DNA of 36,153 bases from Treponema sp. (GTDB lineage Bacteria > Spirochaetota > Spirochaetia > Treponematales > Breznakiellaceae). The position numbers were made by a program, and so were the translations under genes. The notes under the pieces were generated by a model. It was not told where the DNA came from, ran no database searches, and saw nothing but the letters and a program-made list of their open reading frames with translations. The stretch covers positions 1 through 36,153 of the forward strand of contig JAITBG010000192.1 of NCBI GenBank assembly GCA_031283725.1, in the 5' to 3' direction. Shown here one piece after another: positions 24,841-34,650 of this stretch (position 1 is the first letter of the stretch; every line of letters starts with the position of its first letter).

Positions 24841-25794
24841 TTACGCTTTTTTAGAAAAAATTCGAGCGGGGTTCTCCTTAAAAAACAAACTTATCTGCTC
24901 TTCCGGAAGTTCCTTCCTGCGCAGAAGGGGAATGAAATGCTCAATAATATAGGCTAGACCCGGATTACCACCGTAACTTTTTAGCCGGGTCCGGGTTGTA
25001 TCCAAGGACATCAACAGTTGTTTTTCGTATCCTGCTTTGAGCATTTCCAAAATGATCCGAACCTCCGCCTCATCGCTGTGGTACTTGGGGCGGCCTATAG
25101 TGTCGTATTCCAGGATGATTGACCTGGCGCAGGCTTCCCGGTGAATACCAATATCCGCTATCGCGCGGTCCAAGTGGCAAAAAATGATCCTGTTCGGCAC
25201 TACACCCTGTTTGTTTAAGAAATCCGCCAAGGCAATAGGATCAGAGCCTTTCTCAATATGGACCATCAAAACCCCTCCAGAAATCTTGGCGGCCTCAGCG
25301 GCGGCGGTAAAGACCTTCCGGTATTGGGAGGTAAATTCCCCTATGTCTAGAGCAGCTTTGATCTGCCCTGCTCTGGCGCTGATCTGTTTTACCGGATATC
25401 CGTTGTCACCGTCAATAAACATTCCACAGGTAAGTTCCGCCAAATATAAACGGGTCAAATTGTCGGTGCTAATCGAATAAATCCAGTGCCCCTCGGGGTA
25501 AAAGAACATTTTGTGGAACCCTGTAGACGCGATAATATGTACTCCGCTTTTTTTTGAAATATCCCGGAGCATCGCCGCATCTCTGCCGCAGCCAAGTCCC
25601 TGGGCGTCAACCACTGCTCCGCCTCCGAAGTGACGGTATAGTTTCAATTCCTGGCAACTCTTCTCCCAGTCATCAATACATTGATCCGACGACACCGAAG
25701 CGGGATATTCTCTGATAATACTAAGATGTTCGTGGCTCTGACAAAACCCCAAATCGGAAGGCGAAATATCCCCTGAAACTGTCGTTATCACCAT
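24841..25794 (-). CDS. Phosphotriesterase/lactonase-family metal-dependent hydrolase
   Basis: 'GFCQSHEHLSIIREYP', 'GLGCGRDAAMLRDISKKSGVHIIASTGFHKMFFYP', 'IIFCHLDRA', 'LLMSLDTTR' characteristic PTE/COG1735 spacing. Confidence 0.8.
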   Translation of the reverse strand: MVITTVSGDISPSDLGFCQSHEHLSIIREYPASVSSDQCIDDWEKSCQELKLYRHFGGGAVVDAQGLGCGRDAAMLRDISKKSGVHIIASTGFHKMFFYPEGHWIYSISTDNLTRLYLAELTCGMFIDGDNGYPVKQISARAGQIKAALDIGEFTSQYRKVFTAAAEAAKISGGVLMVHIEKGSDPIALADFLNKQGVVPNRIIFCHLDRAIADIGIHREACARSIILEYDTIGRPKYHSDEAEVRIILEMLKAGYEKQLLMSLDTTRTRLKSYGGNPGLAYIIEHFIPLLRRKELPEEQISLFFKENPARIFSKKA

Positions 25795-25806: not shown

Positions 25807-26766
25807 TTATAGGATATAGGGACAGGATTTACCTGATAGAACCTGTATCAGGTTTTGTACCGCCATATTCGCCATATTCACGGTAGCCTCCGCAGTATGA
25901 GATGCTGTATGGGGAGTCAGTACCACGTTATCCAGCTCAAAAAGCGGCGATGTTCCAGGCGGTTCCTCCTCGTAAACGTCGAGTCCGAGACCGCCAATCT
26001 GCCCGGATTTCAAATGTTCGCAGACCGCCTTTTCGTCAATGAGACCACCCCGGGCAGTGTTGACTAAGATGACGCCTTTCTTCATGCGGCGTATTACCGC
26101 GTCGGATATGATATATTTGGTTTCTTCGGTCAAGGGCAGATGCAGGCAGATTACATCGGTGTTTCTGATAACTCCCTCAAAGTCGGAAACTTCTATATTG
26201 TTTTCCAAAGCATACTGTCGATTGATGAAGGGATCATAAGCCAGAACCCGCATAGAAAACCCCTGAGCCCGTTTGGCCACACCCCTACCAATGGCCCCCA
26301 GACCAAGTATACCTATTGTCTTTCCGTAGAGCTCAGTACCGTTGGAACGTATCCATTGCCCCTCTTTGGTTTTACGGTCTAGCATTGGGATCTTGCGGGC
26401 GACGCAGAGAATCAACGCCAGGGTCAAATCCGCTACCGCCTGAGCATTGGCACCGGGGGTATTGCAGACCGAAATGCCTTTTTTCTTTGCCGCAGTAAGA
26501 TCTACCCGGTCTACCCCGGCACCATAGCGGGAAATTACCTTGAGGAAAGTACAAGTGTCAATTACTTTTTCAGTCACAAAATCCAGTCCCGCGATATATC
26601 CTTCACAATCCTTTATCAGCGGGATGAGTTCGTCTTCTATCAGAGGTCTACCGGTAGAATTAAAAACAAGTTCACTGTTATGTTCTTTGACAAATTGCCG
26701 CAGCAAATCCATTCCAGGTCCGATACTGTCGGCTTTAAAAGAAGTGGGGGTAACTAATATTTTCAT
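25807..26766 (-). CDS. D-2-hydroxyacid / phosphoglycerate dehydrogenase-family protein
   Basis: 'GKTIGILGLGAIGRGVAKRAQGF', 'VNTARGGLIDEKAV', 'LTPHTASHT'. Confidence 0.9.
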   Translation of the reverse strand: MKILVTPTSFKADSIGPGMDLLRQFVKEHNSELVFNSTGRPLIEDELIPLIKDCEGYIAGLDFVTEKVIDTCTFLKVISRYGAGVDRVDLTAAKKKGISVCNTPGANAQAVADLTLALILCVARKIPMLDRKTKEGQWIRSNGTELYGKTIGILGLGAIGRGVAKRAQGFSMRVLAYDPFINRQYALENNIEVSDFEGVIRNTDVICLHLPLTEETKYIISDAVIRRMKKGVILVNTARGGLIDEKAVCEHLKSGQIGGLGLDVYEEEPPGTSPLFELDNVVLTPHTASHTAEATVNMANMAVQNLIQVLSGKSCPYIL

Positions 26767-26822: not shown

Positions 26823-28378
26823 TCACCTCTTAACTCTATGGCGGTTAAATTCCGCAAGCCGGTGATACGTATCGATCAATGAATCGTAGGTTTGGTTAAA
26901 AATTTCAAACAGTTCTTCATAAATGGGCGCCAAAGCTTCATTGGGTACAATGGTTTTGACCGGTGTGTTAAATCGATGGATAACCGAAAAATCTTTGAAG
27001 GCGCCGATACCCACGCCGCCACAGATCGCCGCGCCGAGACTTGTCGCCTCTTCGATATAAGTAGGCACGGCAAGAGGTTTTTGCCATATATCGGCAAGTA
27101 TTTGCAGCCACGCAGAACCTTTTGCACCGCCCCCAATCATAATAATTTTACTGATGTCGTCTTTCGCGGTGCTTCCATGCTCAAGAACATCAAGGATGAG
27201 CTTGAGATTGAATCCGATTCCTTCAAGTACCGCCCGGGATATATCCTTCTTGGATGTGGTGATTGAAAGGCCGACAAACGCGCCTCGGGCTTCATGATTC
27301 CATCGGGGAGAACGTTCTCCCAAAAGATACGGCAAATAGAGTAACCCTCCGGCACCCGGAACCGCCTCGGATACTCCTTCATCAAGAAGCTGATAAGGAT
27401 TTTTTCCCTTTTTTGCGGCCGCCGTAATTTCATCCCCACAGAGGGTGTTTCTGTACCAATTGTAGGAATACCCTGCCGCCTGCATGGTACCGCAAGGGGT
27501 ATACAGCGCAGGATCGAGGTGTACCCAGTTAAATGTTCGTAAGTCCGGATCATAGACCGGAGCGGTACTTGCCAGAGATATCCATGAAGAAGACCCAAGT
27601 ACATTATAAGCATTGCCTTCGCTAACAACGCCGGCACCGACACAAGCGCAGCTTCCATCACCTCCGCCAATGATGACCGGAGTTCCTTCAAGCAGCCCCG
27701 TTTCCCGCGCGGCCTCTGGAGTAATGCCCCCGGCATTATCCGTTGACGGATGCGGTTCCGGCAGCAAATCCGGGGAAACACGCAGGGTCTCAAGAATATT
27801 CTTGTCCCAGGTCTTTTTTACCAAATCAAAAAGATTAGTTCCCGAAGCATCACTGTAGTTGGTAACAAATTTTCCTGTCAACTTGTAGATGATATAGTCT
27901 TTGGCATGCACCATTTTATAAGTCCGCCGATACACATCATATTCGTTGTCCCGTACCCACAATAATTTTGCTGCGGAATAGGAAGCACTGATCCGATGTC
28001 CCGTGGTCCGATATACATAATCCATTCCAAGTTTTTTTCCATTCCCGATTCTTGCAGACTCGCACGGGTATCTGCCCAGATAATCATTGGACGCAGGATC
28101 CTGCCTTCAGCGTCGACCAACAGACATCCCATCATTTGACCGCTGAAACATACTGCCGCAATATCAGCGGCGGATATTCCGGCCTTTTCCAGAAGCTGCC
28201 GGGTAGAAAGGCATACCGCTTTCCAGAAATCATCAGGGTTCTGTTCTACCTGGTTTTGCCCAGGATATTGAGTCGGGTATTCATACAGGCAGTTCGCACC
28301 AAGTTTTCCATCAAGAGAAAATAATGTAGCCTTATTACCGCTTGTACCGAGATCATGAGCAAGGATAAATTTTTCCAT
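26823..28378 (-). CDS. FGGY-family carbohydrate kinase (xylulokinase-like), interrupted by a -1 frame change
   Basis: N-part ORF 27878..28378 'LAHDLGTSGNKATLFSLDG'; C-part ORF 26823..28025 'GGGDGSCACVGAGV...MIGGGAKGSAWLQILADI'. They join at GAA AAA AAC TTG (28039-28028). Confidence 0.85.
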
Positions 28379-28533: not shown

Positions 28534-29493
28534 TTATTCGTAAATAACGGCCTTCACTTCGGGACTGTCAATATTAGACTGATCAGACCAGACAAAACCG
28601 GAATCTACAACCTTCGGGACGCTTTCACCTTTGATTGCTTTCAGACAGAGGTTTACAGCTTCATATCCTATCTTGACGGGATTCTGTTGGATAGCGCCGT
28701 AAAGGATGCCGTTACGGATGGCATCAATCTGGGTCTTACCGGAATCAAAGCCGATACCGATTAGCTTGTCCTTCATGTTGAGTTCCGTCATAGCGTTAGC
28801 CAAGCCGATGGCGGAACCTTCGTTACAGGCATAATAACCTTTCAGATCGGGGTTGGCATTGATTACAGCCTTACAGACTTCTGTTGACTTCAGGGGATCA
28901 CCGTCGCCGTACTGAGGTTCAAGAATCTGAATGTTTGGGTATTTCGCCTTCATCAGGTTGATGAAACCATCACGGCGGAGAATCTGGGTAGAGTTGGTCT
29001 TGTCCGAAGCGATAACGGCAACTTTGCCACTCCCGCCGATGGCTGCGGCCATTTTTTCCGCCGCCGCAGCGCCGGCAGCCTCACTGTCGGTAGCGACAAA
29101 GGATGCGGGAATATCAGAATCCACAGTTGCATCAAAGGTCACCACCGGGATCCCTTTGGCCTTGGCCTGCTCAACCAACGTAACCTGGGCTTGCTTATCC
29201 AAAGCCGCAAAACAAATCCCCTGAGGGTTCCTACCCAGAGCGGTTACAAACATGTCGGTCTGCTTGTCGATCATAGTCTCACTTTCGGGACCTTCAAAGG
29301 TGATCCGGATGCCCAGTTCCTTGGCCGCTTTTTCAGCGCCTAGTGCAACATACTGCCAGAACTGATGTTGGTATCCCTTGGAAACCATGGCAATGTAAAC
29401 CTCCTTAGCCATTCCATCCTGTTGTCTGCCAGCGGCGAAGACACCAGTCAGTGCCATGCACAGACACAATAGAACCAATACTACTTTCTTCAT
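28534..29493 (-). CDS. Sugar ABC transporter substrate-binding protein (RbsB-like)
   Basis: Signal peptide; 'KEVYIAMVSKGYQHQFWQYVALGAEKAAKELGI', 'IPVVTFDATVDSD', 'YYACNEGSAIGLANAM'. Confidence 0.93.
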   Translation of the reverse strand: MKKVVLVLLCLCMALTGVFAAGRQQDGMAKEVYIAMVSKGYQHQFWQYVALGAEKAAKELGIRITFEGPESETMIDKQTDMFVTALGRNPQGICFAALDKQAQVTLVEQAKAKGIPVVTFDATVDSDIPASFVATDSEAAGAAAAEKMAAAIGGSGKVAVIASDKTNSTQILRRDGFINLMKAKYPNIQILEPQYGDGDPLKSTEVCKAVINANPDLKGYYACNEGSAIGLANAMTELNMKDKLIGIGFDSGKTQIDAIRNGILYGAIQQNPVKIGYEAVNLCLKAIKGESVPKVVDSGFVWSDQSNIDSPEVKAVIYE

Positions 29494-29559
29494 AACTTCC
29501 TCCTAGTAAAAAATATATTCTTATTCAGCAGCCCCAAGGCTACTGTTAGAAACCTATTG

Positions 29560-29595
29560 GACTTGTTCAAGAACCCTGTGGTTCTCTCACAAGTC
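29560..29595 (-). repeat. Hairpin 1 (GACTTGT..AGAACC-CTGT-GGTTCT..ACAAGTC)
   Basis: Nested perfect arms, 7 bp plus 6 bp with a 3x3 internal loop. Confidence 0.65.
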
Positions 29596-29597
29596 TC

Positions 29598-29618
29598 GCA
29601 AAATGTTCCACATTTTGC
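29598..29618 (-). repeat. Hairpin 2 (GCAAAATGT-TCC-ACATTTTGC)
   Basis: Perfect 9-bp arms, 3-nt loop. Confidence 0.7.
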
Positions 29619-29634
29619 TGTTTTTTATCGGTAT

Positions 29635-29662
29635 TTGTTTAAAAACTTCAGTTTTTAAACAA
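29635..29662 (-). repeat. Hairpin 3 (TTGTTTAAAAACT-TC-AGTTTTTAAACAA)
   Basis: Perfect 13-bp arms with a 2-nt centre, ending 2 nt from the permease stop codon. Confidence 0.7.
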
Positions 29663-29664
29663 CT

Positions 29665-30615
29665 CTATTTTACTTTCCGGCGAACTATATCAAGGTACAC
29701 CGCGCCGATGACGATAAGGCCGGTAATAACCATTTGCCATTCCTGAGGGACTGAAAGGATGCGCAGGCCGTTTGTCAGTACCGTGATAATGAAGGCGCCG
29801 ATTACTGTGCCTAGAATGCTTCCTTCGCCGCCGGCAAGAGAAGCGCCGCCGATAACCGTTGCTGAAATGGCGTCCATTTCGTAGCCTGCCCCAATGGAAG
29901 GCTGTGCTGAAGAGACCCGGCTCACCATAACGACGCCGGCAAGCCCGAAGAACGCGCCACTCATCGCGTAGATACCGATTTTCCATGCATCAGTGCTGAT
30001 GCCCGAAAGGCGTGTCGCTTCTTCGTTGGAACCGATGGCGTAGGTATAGCGACCGATAATGGTTTTTGACAGGATAAAGGTGGCGATCAGGGCGCAGGTA
30101 AAAAATATCAATACCCCTACAGGTACGCCAAAAAAAGGACGAGTGGCGAAAGTTGCAAATTTCTGAGCATTGGGGAAGTAAATGGGGCGCGCATTTGATA
30201 CAATCAGGTTAAGGCCTTTAGTCACGTTCATCATGCCCAAAGTGGCGATGAAGGGCGGTAACCCCAGTTTAGTAATGGTGACACCGTTCAGAAATCCGCA
30301 GAAGGCCCCCGCCAGAATACCCATGAGAATACCAACAACGATGGGTGCGCCGAGCTTTGAAATAAAGATCGCCGTTAACATGGAGCCAAAGGTCATTACC
30401 GTGCCGGCGGAAAGGTCGATACCGCCGGTAACGATGATAAAAGTAATCCCCACAGCAAGGATACCGTTTACCGCCGTCATCAGCAGAATTGTCGTGATAT
30501 TACTGGCTATAAGAAAATTCGGAGACGCAATGGTAAAGATAATGAGAAGCAGGACGAGACTGGAAAAGGCCAGTACTGTCTGCATCGCTTTTGAATTAAG
30601 TTTTATTCTCGTCAT
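29665..30615 (-). CDS. Sugar ABC transporter permease (RbsC-like)
   Basis: 'GGIDLSAGTVMTFGSML', 'AIGSNEEATRLSGI', 'SATVIGGASLAGGEGSILGTVIGA'. Start at 30615 (MTRIKLNS) preferred over the longer ORF. Confidence 0.93.
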   Translation of the reverse strand: MTRIKLNSKAMQTVLAFSSLVLLLIIFTIASPNFLIASNITTILLMTAVNGILAVGITFIIVTGGIDLSAGTVMTFGSMLTAIFISKLGAPIVVGILMGILAGAFCGFLNGVTITKLGLPPFIATLGMMNVTKGLNLIVSNARPIYFPNAQKFATFATRPFFGVPVGVLIFFTCALIATFILSKTIIGRYTYAIGSNEEATRLSGISTDAWKIGIYAMSGAFFGLAGVVMVSRVSSAQPSIGAGYEMDAISATVIGGASLAGGEGSILGTVIGAFIITVLTNGLRILSVPQEWQMVITGLIVIGAVYLDIVRRKVK

Positions 30616-30637
30616 GACCAATCCTTTTCTTTCTAAC

Positions 30638-32170
30638 TTAGTCTTTTGGCAAATCCAGCGGTACTGCGGAAATATCCCGCTGAGTAGCGTAGTACATAAT
30701 TTTTTCCTGGGTACTTTCGGCAACGCTCAGGGCAGCCGTAACTCGGCCTTCGCACATTACCATTACACGGTGGCTCATACGCAATATTTCAGGTAATTCT
30801 GAAGAAATCATAATGATTGACTTCCCTTGCTCTGCCAATTCGTTCAGCAATTTATAGATTTCACTCTTTGCCCCTACGTCGATACCTCTGGTAGGCTCGT
30901 CGAAGATCATTATATCACTGTCCTGGATCAACCATTTACCCATCACGACCTTCTGTTGATTACCCCCGGAAAGATTCCGTACAAGTTGATCAATACTTGG
31001 CGTCCTGGTATTGAGTTTTTTGATAAATTTTTCAGTAACTGCCTTCGACTTTACCTCATCAATAATGCCCAAAGGTCCGAGAAATCGTTGTAGTGAAACC
31101 ATCACGGTGTTCACCTTTACAGACATGCCCAAGGCCAGGCCGAAACGCTTGCGATCTTCCGAAAGATAACAGATGCCTTGCCGGACCGCATCCTTTGGCT
31201 GTTTTATGACAGCTTTCTTTCCCTTAATGAATATTTCTCCTGATTCCATGGGGTCTGCTCCAAATATAAGACGCATGGTCTCAGTACGGCCTGCTCCGAC
31301 AAGACCCGCAAAACCCAAAATCTCGCCTTTATGGAGCTGAAAGGACACATCCCGCACCACGTGACCGCGCTTGAGCTTCTTTACTTCCAGTACGATTTCA
31401 TTCTTCTCTGTGTCACCATGGAGGTGATGGCTTTCGTATATCTCGCGGCCCACCATCTGGGAAATTATCTGCTCTGTGGTAATATCCTTCATAATTGTGG
31501 TGACAATATGCCGACTGTCCCGCATTACGGTAACACGATCACAAATCCGGCGTAACTCATCCAGCCGGTGTGAAATATAAATAATGCCTTTACCTTTGCT
31601 CCGCAGATCGAGAATCACCTTGAAAAGCTCTTCGATTTCGTTCTCACTGAGTGAAGAGGAAGGCTCATCCATGATGAGTACATCGTTATTGAAAGAAAGG
31701 GCTTTGGCAATCTCTACCATCTGTTGCTGGGCTACGGTCAAATCGCCGACCTTAACCCTGGGGTCGATTTTCAGATCGATCAACCTGAAGAGTTCTACCG
31801 CCTTACGATTGATCTCTACATCGTTTACCAAGAAGGGTATCTTCTTATTCTGCTCACGTCCGATAAAAATGTTCTGCGCCGCTGTAAGGTGCTTCATCAT
31901 ATTTAGTTCCTGATGGATTATGCTTATCCCCAATTCTTGAGCTTCTCTGGTATTGTGTATATCCACCGGCTTCCCACGGATTTCTATAGTCCCCGAATCC
32001 TTTTGATAAACTCCTGCGAGGCACTTTACCAGCGTGGACTTGCCTGCACCGTTTTCGCCTATCAGCGCATGTACTTCACCGGCCAAAAGCTCAAAGCAGA
32101 CTTTATTCAGCGCATGAACACCCGGGAAGCTTTTTTCTATGTTTTCCATTCGAACAAGAACTTCGCTCAT
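30638..32170 (-). CDS. Sugar ABC transporter ATP-binding protein (RbsA-like, two NBDs)
   Basis: 'GENGAGKSTLVKCLAG', 'LSGGNQQKVVMGKWL', 'MIFDEPTRGIDVGAKSEIYKL'. Start is 32170 or 32185. Confidence 0.95.
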   Translation of the reverse strand: MSEVLVRMENIEKSFPGVHALNKVCFELLAGEVHALIGENGAGKSTLVKCLAGVYQKDSGTIEIRGKPVDIHNTREAQELGISIIHQELNMMKHLTAAQNIFIGREQNKKIPFLVNDVEINRKAVELFRLIDLKIDPRVKVGDLTVAQQQMVEIAKALSFNNDVLIMDEPSSSLSENEIEELFKVILDLRSKGKGIIYISHRLDELRRICDRVTVMRDSRHIVTTIMKDITTEQIISQMVGREIYESHHLHGDTEKNEIVLEVKKLKRGHVVRDVSFQLHKGEILGFAGLVGAGRTETMRLIFGADPMESGEIFIKGKKAVIKQPKDAVRQGICYLSEDRKRFGLALGMSVKVNTVMVSLQRFLGPLGIIDEVKSKAVTEKFIKKLNTRTPSIDQLVRNLSGGNQQKVVMGKWLIQDSDIMIFDEPTRGIDVGAKSEIYKLLNELAEQGKSIIMISSELPEILRMSHRVMVMCEGRVTAALSVAESTQEKIMYYATQRDISAVPLDLPKD

Positions 32171-32184
32171 CCTAAGCTCCCTCA

Positions 32185-33180
32185 TTATTTTCCATAATAA
32201 ATGTTTTGTGCGAATTGTTGTAAAATAACTTCGAGCTCCTTCACCGTCATGTCATCCAAATCCCATTCAACGCTTTTTACATTTTTTTGCAGTTGCTCCA
32301 CCGAGGAAGCGCCGCCGATGATGCTGGTGACTTCTGGTTTTCGGCGCAGCCAATTAAAAGCGATCTCGTTGATGGGCCGTCCGATCTTCTCTCCTACTTC
32401 TTCAATCCGCATTACTGCTCTGCGATATTTTTCGAATCCCTCTCCGGCTAATTTGGGATTAGCATTGCGAATGTCTTTCTTTGAAAAAGTGATTCCACTG
32501 TCGAATTTTCCTGCCAACAACCCCTGAAACAGCGGACTATAAGGCAAAAAAACCTGACCATACTTTTTTACTACTGGCAGTACATCAGCTTCCGTACGGT
32601 AATCCAAAGGGATACCGTGGTAACTCGTGGAATTGCGTTCAAACATATTATAAAGAGACTGCTGGCAGTGTACAGGAATATAATTCATCATCATTTCCAC
32701 ATCCCTCTGGGCAAAGTTAGACAGTCCCACATAGCGGATCTTCCCGGCCTTGCGGATTTCATCAAGTACCTGTGCGGTTTCCTGTAAAGGAGTAGTCGGA
32801 TCAGGCCAGTGCATCTGGTAAATATCAATATAATCGGTTTGCAACCGCTTTAGGCTTGCATCTATCTCTTTCAAAAGACTTGTTCTGGATAAATTGTTTT
32901 GCGTTTGGTAAGGCTTGTCCCACAGGAGTCCGCCTTTGGAAGCGATTAAAACTTTATTGCGTCTACCATCCTGTAAAGCGTTTCCGAGAATGGTTTCAGA
33001 TTGTCCCCAGCCGTAAACAGGGGCCACATCGAACAGGTTGATTCCCATTTCAATGGCTGCATGCACGATAGCAATGGATTTCCGCTTGTCCGATGAATCC
33101 CAATCGCCGCCAAAATTCCAGCACCCTAAGCCAATGACAGAAATTTTTTCTTCTATCATTTTGGTTTTTTTATAAACCAC
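32185..33180 (-). CDS. Aldo/keto reductase
   Basis: 'GINLFDVAPVYGWGQSETILGNAL', 'DYIDIYQMHWPD', 'VGLSNF', 'IIGGASSVEQLQKN'. Confidence 0.93.
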   Translation of the reverse strand: MVYKKTKMIEEKISVIGLGCWNFGGDWDSSDKRKSIAIVHAAIEMGINLFDVAPVYGWGQSETILGNALQDGRRNKVLIASKGGLLWDKPYQTQNNLSRTSLLKEIDASLKRLQTDYIDIYQMHWPDPTTPLQETAQVLDEIRKAGKIRYVGLSNFAQRDVEMMMNYIPVHCQQSLYNMFERNSTSYHGIPLDYRTEADVLPVVKKYGQVFLPYSPLFQGLLAGKFDSGITFSKKDIRNANPKLAGEGFEKYRRAVMRIEEVGEKIGRPINEIAFNWLRRKPEVTSIIGGASSVEQLQKNVKSVEWDLDDMTVKELEVILQQFAQNIYYGK

Positions 33181-33706
33181 ACCCGATCTTCCTTTGCTTT
33201 ATGCACCAGCTTTATATATTCGGTCCATCAATTTGTAATCATGTAAAGTCATTATAATATATTAAATTCTGCTTGTCAAGGATTTTGTTCTTTGTTTAGA
33301 AAAATTTATCCATGTGCAATAACATCGGAGGATCGCTAAAAATTTAGGTCTATACTATAAATTTATCGTGGCTCTGGATGTTTCATAATTCTTTATATAA
33401 CAATGATTTAAACAACAACACTCCGTGCCGGTGAAGCCGAGAGGTACCCAAAAACCATCCGGATTTTGAAACGGGCTTTTCTATATAATAACATTATGTC
33501 ATAGTAACTTTTTTACAATCCCGCTTTACTTTTTATTCTGGATGGTGTACTATTTCAGTATAGATATCAATATATAATGACATTAAATCATTTGAGAAAT
33601 GGGATTATCAAAGATACATCATATATAGTGTATATTAGAGCATATATGTACTGATGTTATGATTGCAGCGAATTTGCCACTCGCGAGAGATTACAAGGAG
33701 CTTTTT

Positions 33707-34650
33707 ATGCCGGATCTACAGCCAGCCCGATCCCCAACGTTTTACTTTATCGGTGTTACAACGGGCCAATCATCTATAATGAAGGTTTTTCCCAAATGGG
33801 CGAAGGTCCTTGGAATAGAGGCGAAAATAATGGGCCTGGATCTCCCCATACACGCCTCCCCTCAGGAATACCGGAATGTCGTCGAATTCCTCAAAACCGA
33901 CCCTCTGTCCCTGGGCGCTTTGGTAACTACCCACAAACTGGACCTCTTTAAAGCCTGCCGGGATATATTTGACTATATTGACCCTTTTGCGGAAGAACTC
34001 GAAGAAGTTTCCTGCCTTTCCAAGCGGAACGGGCTTTTCCGGGCCCACGCGAAGGATCCCGTTTCAAGTGGCATGGCCCTGGAATGTTTTGTACCTCAGA
34101 ATTTCTGGGCCGATCACGGCGGGGAAGTCCTGCTTTTGGGAGCCGGGGGTAGTTCCCTGGCCATGTCCCTGTATTTTTCGCAGGAAAAATTTGCCGGAAA
34201 TATGCCTTCCCGCATCACAATCGCGAATCGCAGCGAACCCCGGCTGGTTTCGGCCCGGGCGGTCCTGCAGAGGCTTAGCAAGGACATCGAGTTTCGTTTT
34301 TTCGTTTTGTCCATAATCCCCATAACGAGGACAACAACAGCCTTGTCGCCGCCCTGCCTCCCTATTCCCTGGTGGTCAACGCCACAGGTCTTGGTAAGGA
34401 CGCCCCGGGTTCCCCCACCGCCGACGGGGTATCCTATCCGCGAAACAGCCTGGTTTGGGAAATAAATTATCGGGGAGATATGCTCTTTAAACGCCAGGCC
34501 GAAGCACAGGCCCGAGAAAAGCGGCTCCATGTCGAGGATGGATGGAAATACTTTATCTTTGGCTGGATTCAGGTTATCACTGAAGTGTTTGATATTGATA
34601 TTTCGCCTTCTATGCTGGAAAAGCTCAGCGCTATTGCAAAAGAAACATAA
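33707..34650 (+). pseudogene. Shikimate-dehydrogenase-like protein, interrupted by a frame change
   Basis: SD CAAGGAG and ATG at 33707. N-part 'TFYFIGVTTGQSS..LGALVTTHK', 'VLLLGAGGSSLAMSLY'. C-part in the -1 frame: 'VHNPHNEDNNSLVAALPPYSLVVNATGLGKDAPGSP..NSLVWEINYRG'. Break at an 8-bp tandem repeat, 34293-34308. Confidence 0.8.
34293..34308 (+). repeat. Perfect 8-bp tandem duplication TTCGTTTT|TTCGTTTT
   Basis: Direct reading. Confidence 0.95.

Follow-up and report, generated by a model that had tools for sequence, protein, structure and literature searches.

The window analyzed here, i.e., the entire 36,153-nucleotide stretch of a Treponema sp. contig, contains a gene cluster in which an FGGY kinase is accompanied by an ABC sugar importer, a 2-hydroxyacid dehydrogenase, a PTE lactonase-like protein, an aldo/keto reductase, and a divergent AroE-like gene. 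Its features are as follows.

24841-25794, minus strand: phosphotriesterase-family (PTE, lactonase-like) protein, intact (domain search)
25807-26766, minus strand: D-isomer 2-hydroxyacid dehydrogenase, intact (domain search)
26823-28034, minus strand: C-terminal FGGY kinase part in the -1 frame, comprising the remaining FGGY_N and FGGY_C, without further stops
27878-28378, minus strand: 0-frame ORF of 166 aa, with the FGGY_N half in its first ~116 aa and out-of-frame sequence in its last ~50 aa
28031-28038, minus strand: A7C run with the in-phase heptamer A_AAA_AAC, the frame-break site (sequence reading and comparison of the site in orthologs)
28534-29493, minus strand: periplasmic sugar-binding protein (Peripla_BP_4), intact (domain search)
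29665-30723, minus strand: sugar ABC permease (BPD_transp_2), intact (domain search)
30638-32185, minus strand: sugar ABC ATPase with two ABC_tran domains, intact (domain search)
32185-33180, minus strand: aldo/keto reductase, intact (domain search)
33659-34644, plus strand: AroE-like dehydrogenase gene, frame-broken, with its N part at 33659-34300 and its C part at 34300-34644 in another frame
34293-34308, plus strand: exact 8-bp tandem duplication (TTCGTTTT twice) responsible for the frame break in the AroE-like gene

On the minus strand, the kinase sequence reads ATG GAA AAA AAC TTG, and the A7C run at 28038-28031 is the point at which the FGGY kinase frame breaks. A domain search revealed that the 0-frame ORF (28378 to 27878) matches positions 2-105 of FGGY_N, and that the -1 frame ORF (28025 to 26823, open from about 28034) matches positions 116-245 of the same domain together with the whole of FGGY_C. 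The sequence and the domain matches therefore confirm the claim of an initial annotation that an FGGY kinase is split on the minus strand at A7C, with its C-terminal part in the -1 frame. The presence of both FGGY_N and FGGY_C identifies the gene as a xylulokinase-like FGGY carbohydrate kinase, and its nearest NCBIfam families are xylulokinase, gluconokinase, and related FGGY kinases. Since the closest intact relative scores 378.1, below the NCBIfam XylB cut-off of 380.25, the substrate and subfamily are not fixed. We also looked for candidate compensating copies in the same genome, and the best other kinase match was only 35% identical. A separate C-terminal subunit translated from the internal ATG at 28025 was considered as well and is unlikely, given that FGGY_N would be split mid-domain.

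Kinase orthologs (58-79% identity) were found in 12 of the 199 other genomes of the family, which includes a termite-gut-type Treponema MAG, and two more were taken from MAGs outside the family. The site is included in 11 of the 12 family orthologs, all 11 of which form a single open frame of at least 515 aa; the twelfth (G152, 77%) is cut by a contig end. Alignment to close homologs, which the initial annotation had proposed as a check, thus returned unbroken orthologs, and A_AAA_AAC was present at the site in none of the 13 distinct orthologs read, including the termite-gut Treponema MAG and the two MAGs from outside the family. Indeed, the codons at this position are highly variable among the orthologs read, and no long A-run is found in them. 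Three intact xylulokinase-like orthologs from the same family (L021, L022, and L023; 74-79% identical) share the domain layout of the window kinase and differ from it in being one continuous frame. In addition, a Treponema MAG locus (L019), whose kinase is 70% identical, hosts much of the window's gene set (PTE, AroE-like gene, 2-hydroxyacid dehydrogenase, importer, and kinase). The conservation of frame transition and slippery site that marks programmed -1 frameshifting is therefore lacking among these homologs, and what is found, i.e., a frame-breaking lesion where the orthologs are intact and share no recoding site, agrees with a pseudogene produced by a recent indel. Within the genus, a kinase at the 58-79% level was absent from all five other genomes sampled, which indicates that the kinase is dispensable; one of them, G003, nevertheless has the transporter at 58-77%.

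The coding constraint on the kinase was assessed in both of its halves. The dN values are low in the N and C halves alike and about equal to those of intact orthologs; for each half, the window kinase and its closest ortholog have similar dN, and dS is close to saturation. Purifying selection is visible over the entire C part, and no disabling change was seen in the gene besides the frame break. Relaxed constraint and additional lesions, which are expected of older pseudogenes and not required of very recent ones, were thus not observed, and the gene also lacks the additional branch length that an older pseudogene would have accumulated. The low dN and the lack of any other disabling change together suggest that the break is young, and the gene, judged from its sequence, appears to have been under selection until very recently, or to be so still. 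This pattern fits a young indel, an error, and a rescue by recoding, and does not separate the three.

As in known programmed -1 frameshift genes, a heptamer of the X_XXY_YYZ type lies in phase at the overlap of the two frames. The initial annotation had stressed, as evidence, that the break falls exactly at a canonical slippery heptamer, an emphasis that does not hold up. If one A is lost from an A-run whose end coincides with a codon boundary, the 0 frame turns into xxA AAA AAC and the former frame into -1; since contraction in such a phase creates the heptamer automatically, its presence carries little independent weight. Moreover, we counted 62 in-phase copies of A_AAA_AAC across 457 of this genome's ORFs (525 kb), i.e., 2.5-fold the synonymous-shuffle expectation, and the AAAAAAAC string occurs 7 times in the window versus 3.1 expected. 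In-phase homopolymer heptamers are in fact over-represented relative to synonymous shuffles in this genome (L063-L111), in G003, and in G004, which is complete (4,059,867 bases) and from the same genus. For A_AAA_AAC, the observed and expected numbers are 62 versus 25, 51 versus 23, and 63 versus 38, respectively, and most homopolymer heptamers show a similar excess in all three. By comparison, in 121 kb of ORFs from E. coli, a small sample, copies were fewer than expected (1 versus 4.5).

A downstream stimulatory structure, which is usual and not obligatory at such sites, was not detected at the break by a pseudoknot-free fold model (z = +1.19 and +0.45). The fold energy downstream of the break ranked 47th among 56 in-phase heptamers and 412th among 457 random coding segments of this genome, i.e., weaker than most, in line with the earlier remark that no convincing stem was apparent. 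The heptamers that perform best at -1 shifting in E. coli have G as their last base (PMC4066793). The A6C motif of IS1 supports about 2% frameshifting in its own context, and its activity is described as very low when it stands by itself (PMC12428005). The kinase and the insA-insB' junction of IS1 have the A_AAA_AAC heptamer and its phase in common. In IS1, however, transposase production depends on the shift, each of the two products has a role, and a pseudoknot has been proposed downstream, whereas in the kinase the site is unconserved, no stem is present, and the 0 frame encodes half a domain.

The kinase is not the only damaged gene in the cluster. We surveyed 0.62 Mb of this genome against relatives for frame breaks in non-overlapping genes, and the AroE-like gene was found to be broken 6 kb from the kinase break by the 8-bp duplication, a lesion that involves no homopolymer and no slippery site. 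The duplication was absent from all eight rows read at the site (seven distinct relatives), and in 19 other genomes of the family the AroE-like frame is open over at least 313 aa. The same survey uncovered a few other genes broken at non-slippery sites elsewhere in the genome, so that frame-broken genes are not unique to the kinase cluster.

The main rival to a genuine mutation, which we consider unlikely without dismissing it, is that the A-run was given a wrong length during sequencing or consensus calling of a draft metagenome assembly, the true kinase gene being intact. The assembly is indeed fragmented (2.49 Mb in 231 contigs, 78.85% complete), the kinase gene shows no decay elsewhere, and an error at the A-run would look identical to a true deletion. 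Yet among the 83 A/T runs of at least 7 in homology-covered coding DNA (185 kb), only that of the kinase coincides with a frame break; homopolymer errors are therefore not rampant, and the idea of such errors throughout the assembly finds no support. The neighboring AroE-like break, being a duplication, is no homopolymer error either, and one relative, the MAG Lab288P1bin11, judging by its isolate name, apparently belongs to an Illumina HiSeq series from higher termites (PMC7024585). In the GeneTack scheme (PMC3711429), a singleton frame break validated by BLAST is classed as an error or a recent indel (hypothetical pseudogene/error class). The kinase resembles this class in having one member, a break validated by BLAST and Pfam, and no conserved frameshift site, and is by this scheme an indel mutation or an error, not a programmed frameshift. 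It departs from the class in that a second gene of its cluster is broken, which tilts the balance toward real mutation.

Some full-length kinase could in principle arise at A_AAA_AAC by -1 ribosomal frameshifting, whether leaky or programmed, or by transcript slippage, and the phase of the heptamer, the activity of the same motif in IS1, and the continued selection on the C part speak for it. We nevertheless regard this as very unlikely, as the site occurs in no ortholog, no downstream structure was found, intact genes of this genome contain the motif in abundance, and the half-domain encoded in the 0 frame would have no sensible role. Programmed frameshifting was accordingly rejected as the leading idea on account of the unconserved site, the missing stem, and the commonness of the heptamer. 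Reversible changes in A-run length that switch the kinase on and off are hardly probable either: homopolymers are enriched in the genus, and the neighboring 8-bp duplication could in principle revert too, but the A-run is short for a contingency tract, 18 A/T runs of 8-9 in homology-covered coding DNA are intact in other genes, and the orthologs have no long run at the site. Moreover, cytosolic sugar kinases are not typically among the proteins subject to phase variation. Also very unlikely, in our estimate, is a lineage-specific "corrective" process, in which low-level -1 frameshifting or slippage, in a spirochaete with genes rich in in-phase slippery heptamers, would allow the A7 allele still to give useful full-length kinase.

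We favor, with a probability of roughly 60%, a real and recent inactivating indel in the kinase gene, namely a one-base contraction of the A-run, because the site is not conserved and another gene of the cluster carries a lesion too. Under this reading, one A was lost recently and the frame was broken, most ribosomes would yield an N-terminal product of about 166 aa that is cut short and without function, and A_AAA_AAC would be a residue of the contraction rather than an evolved recoding signal. The lesion would then be present in the organism and not in the assembly alone. The purifying selection on the C part counts against this reading, since a full-length kinase may have been working until very recently, or may be working still. 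The break is probably ordinary and not a case of special decoding. Of the initial interpretation, the reality of the break and the view that frameshifting is unproven both stand, the weight given to the heptamer does not, and the second, non-slippery break favors gene loss. We postulate that the genes around the kinase form an accessory cluster for the import and catabolism of sugars or sugar acids and that this cluster has begun to decay in the lineage, with the AroE-like gene broken independently by the tandem duplication. The locus may thus mark a decaying sugar-utilisation cluster in this spirochaete lineage. It also cautions that a break at a slippery heptamer is weak evidence of recoding where an indel in an A-run makes the heptamer anyway and the genome is full of them.

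Two kinds of repeated sequence were observed in the course of this analysis. A hairpin-rich element of ~115 bp (29555-29671; fold z = -7.3) lies between the permease and binding-protein genes. It is MITE-like, with imperfect inverted ends (GAGTTGTT / AACAAGTC), and dispersed, with about 14 copies (70-97%) in the part of the genome read and one in G004 (78%); it has no Rfam match, and an Rfam search of the window returned none. In addition, poly-G tracts of 14-21 G, mostly intergenic and often of the form (GT)G(n)TAAAA..., occur at L063:4338 and 13801, L069:594, L083:622, L085:5718, L092:577, and L098:6529, as well as in L144 and L153 (G004). Two of them have near-identical flanks, and poly-G ends some contigs of this genome. 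These tracts recall the length-variable poly-G tracts of other treponemes.
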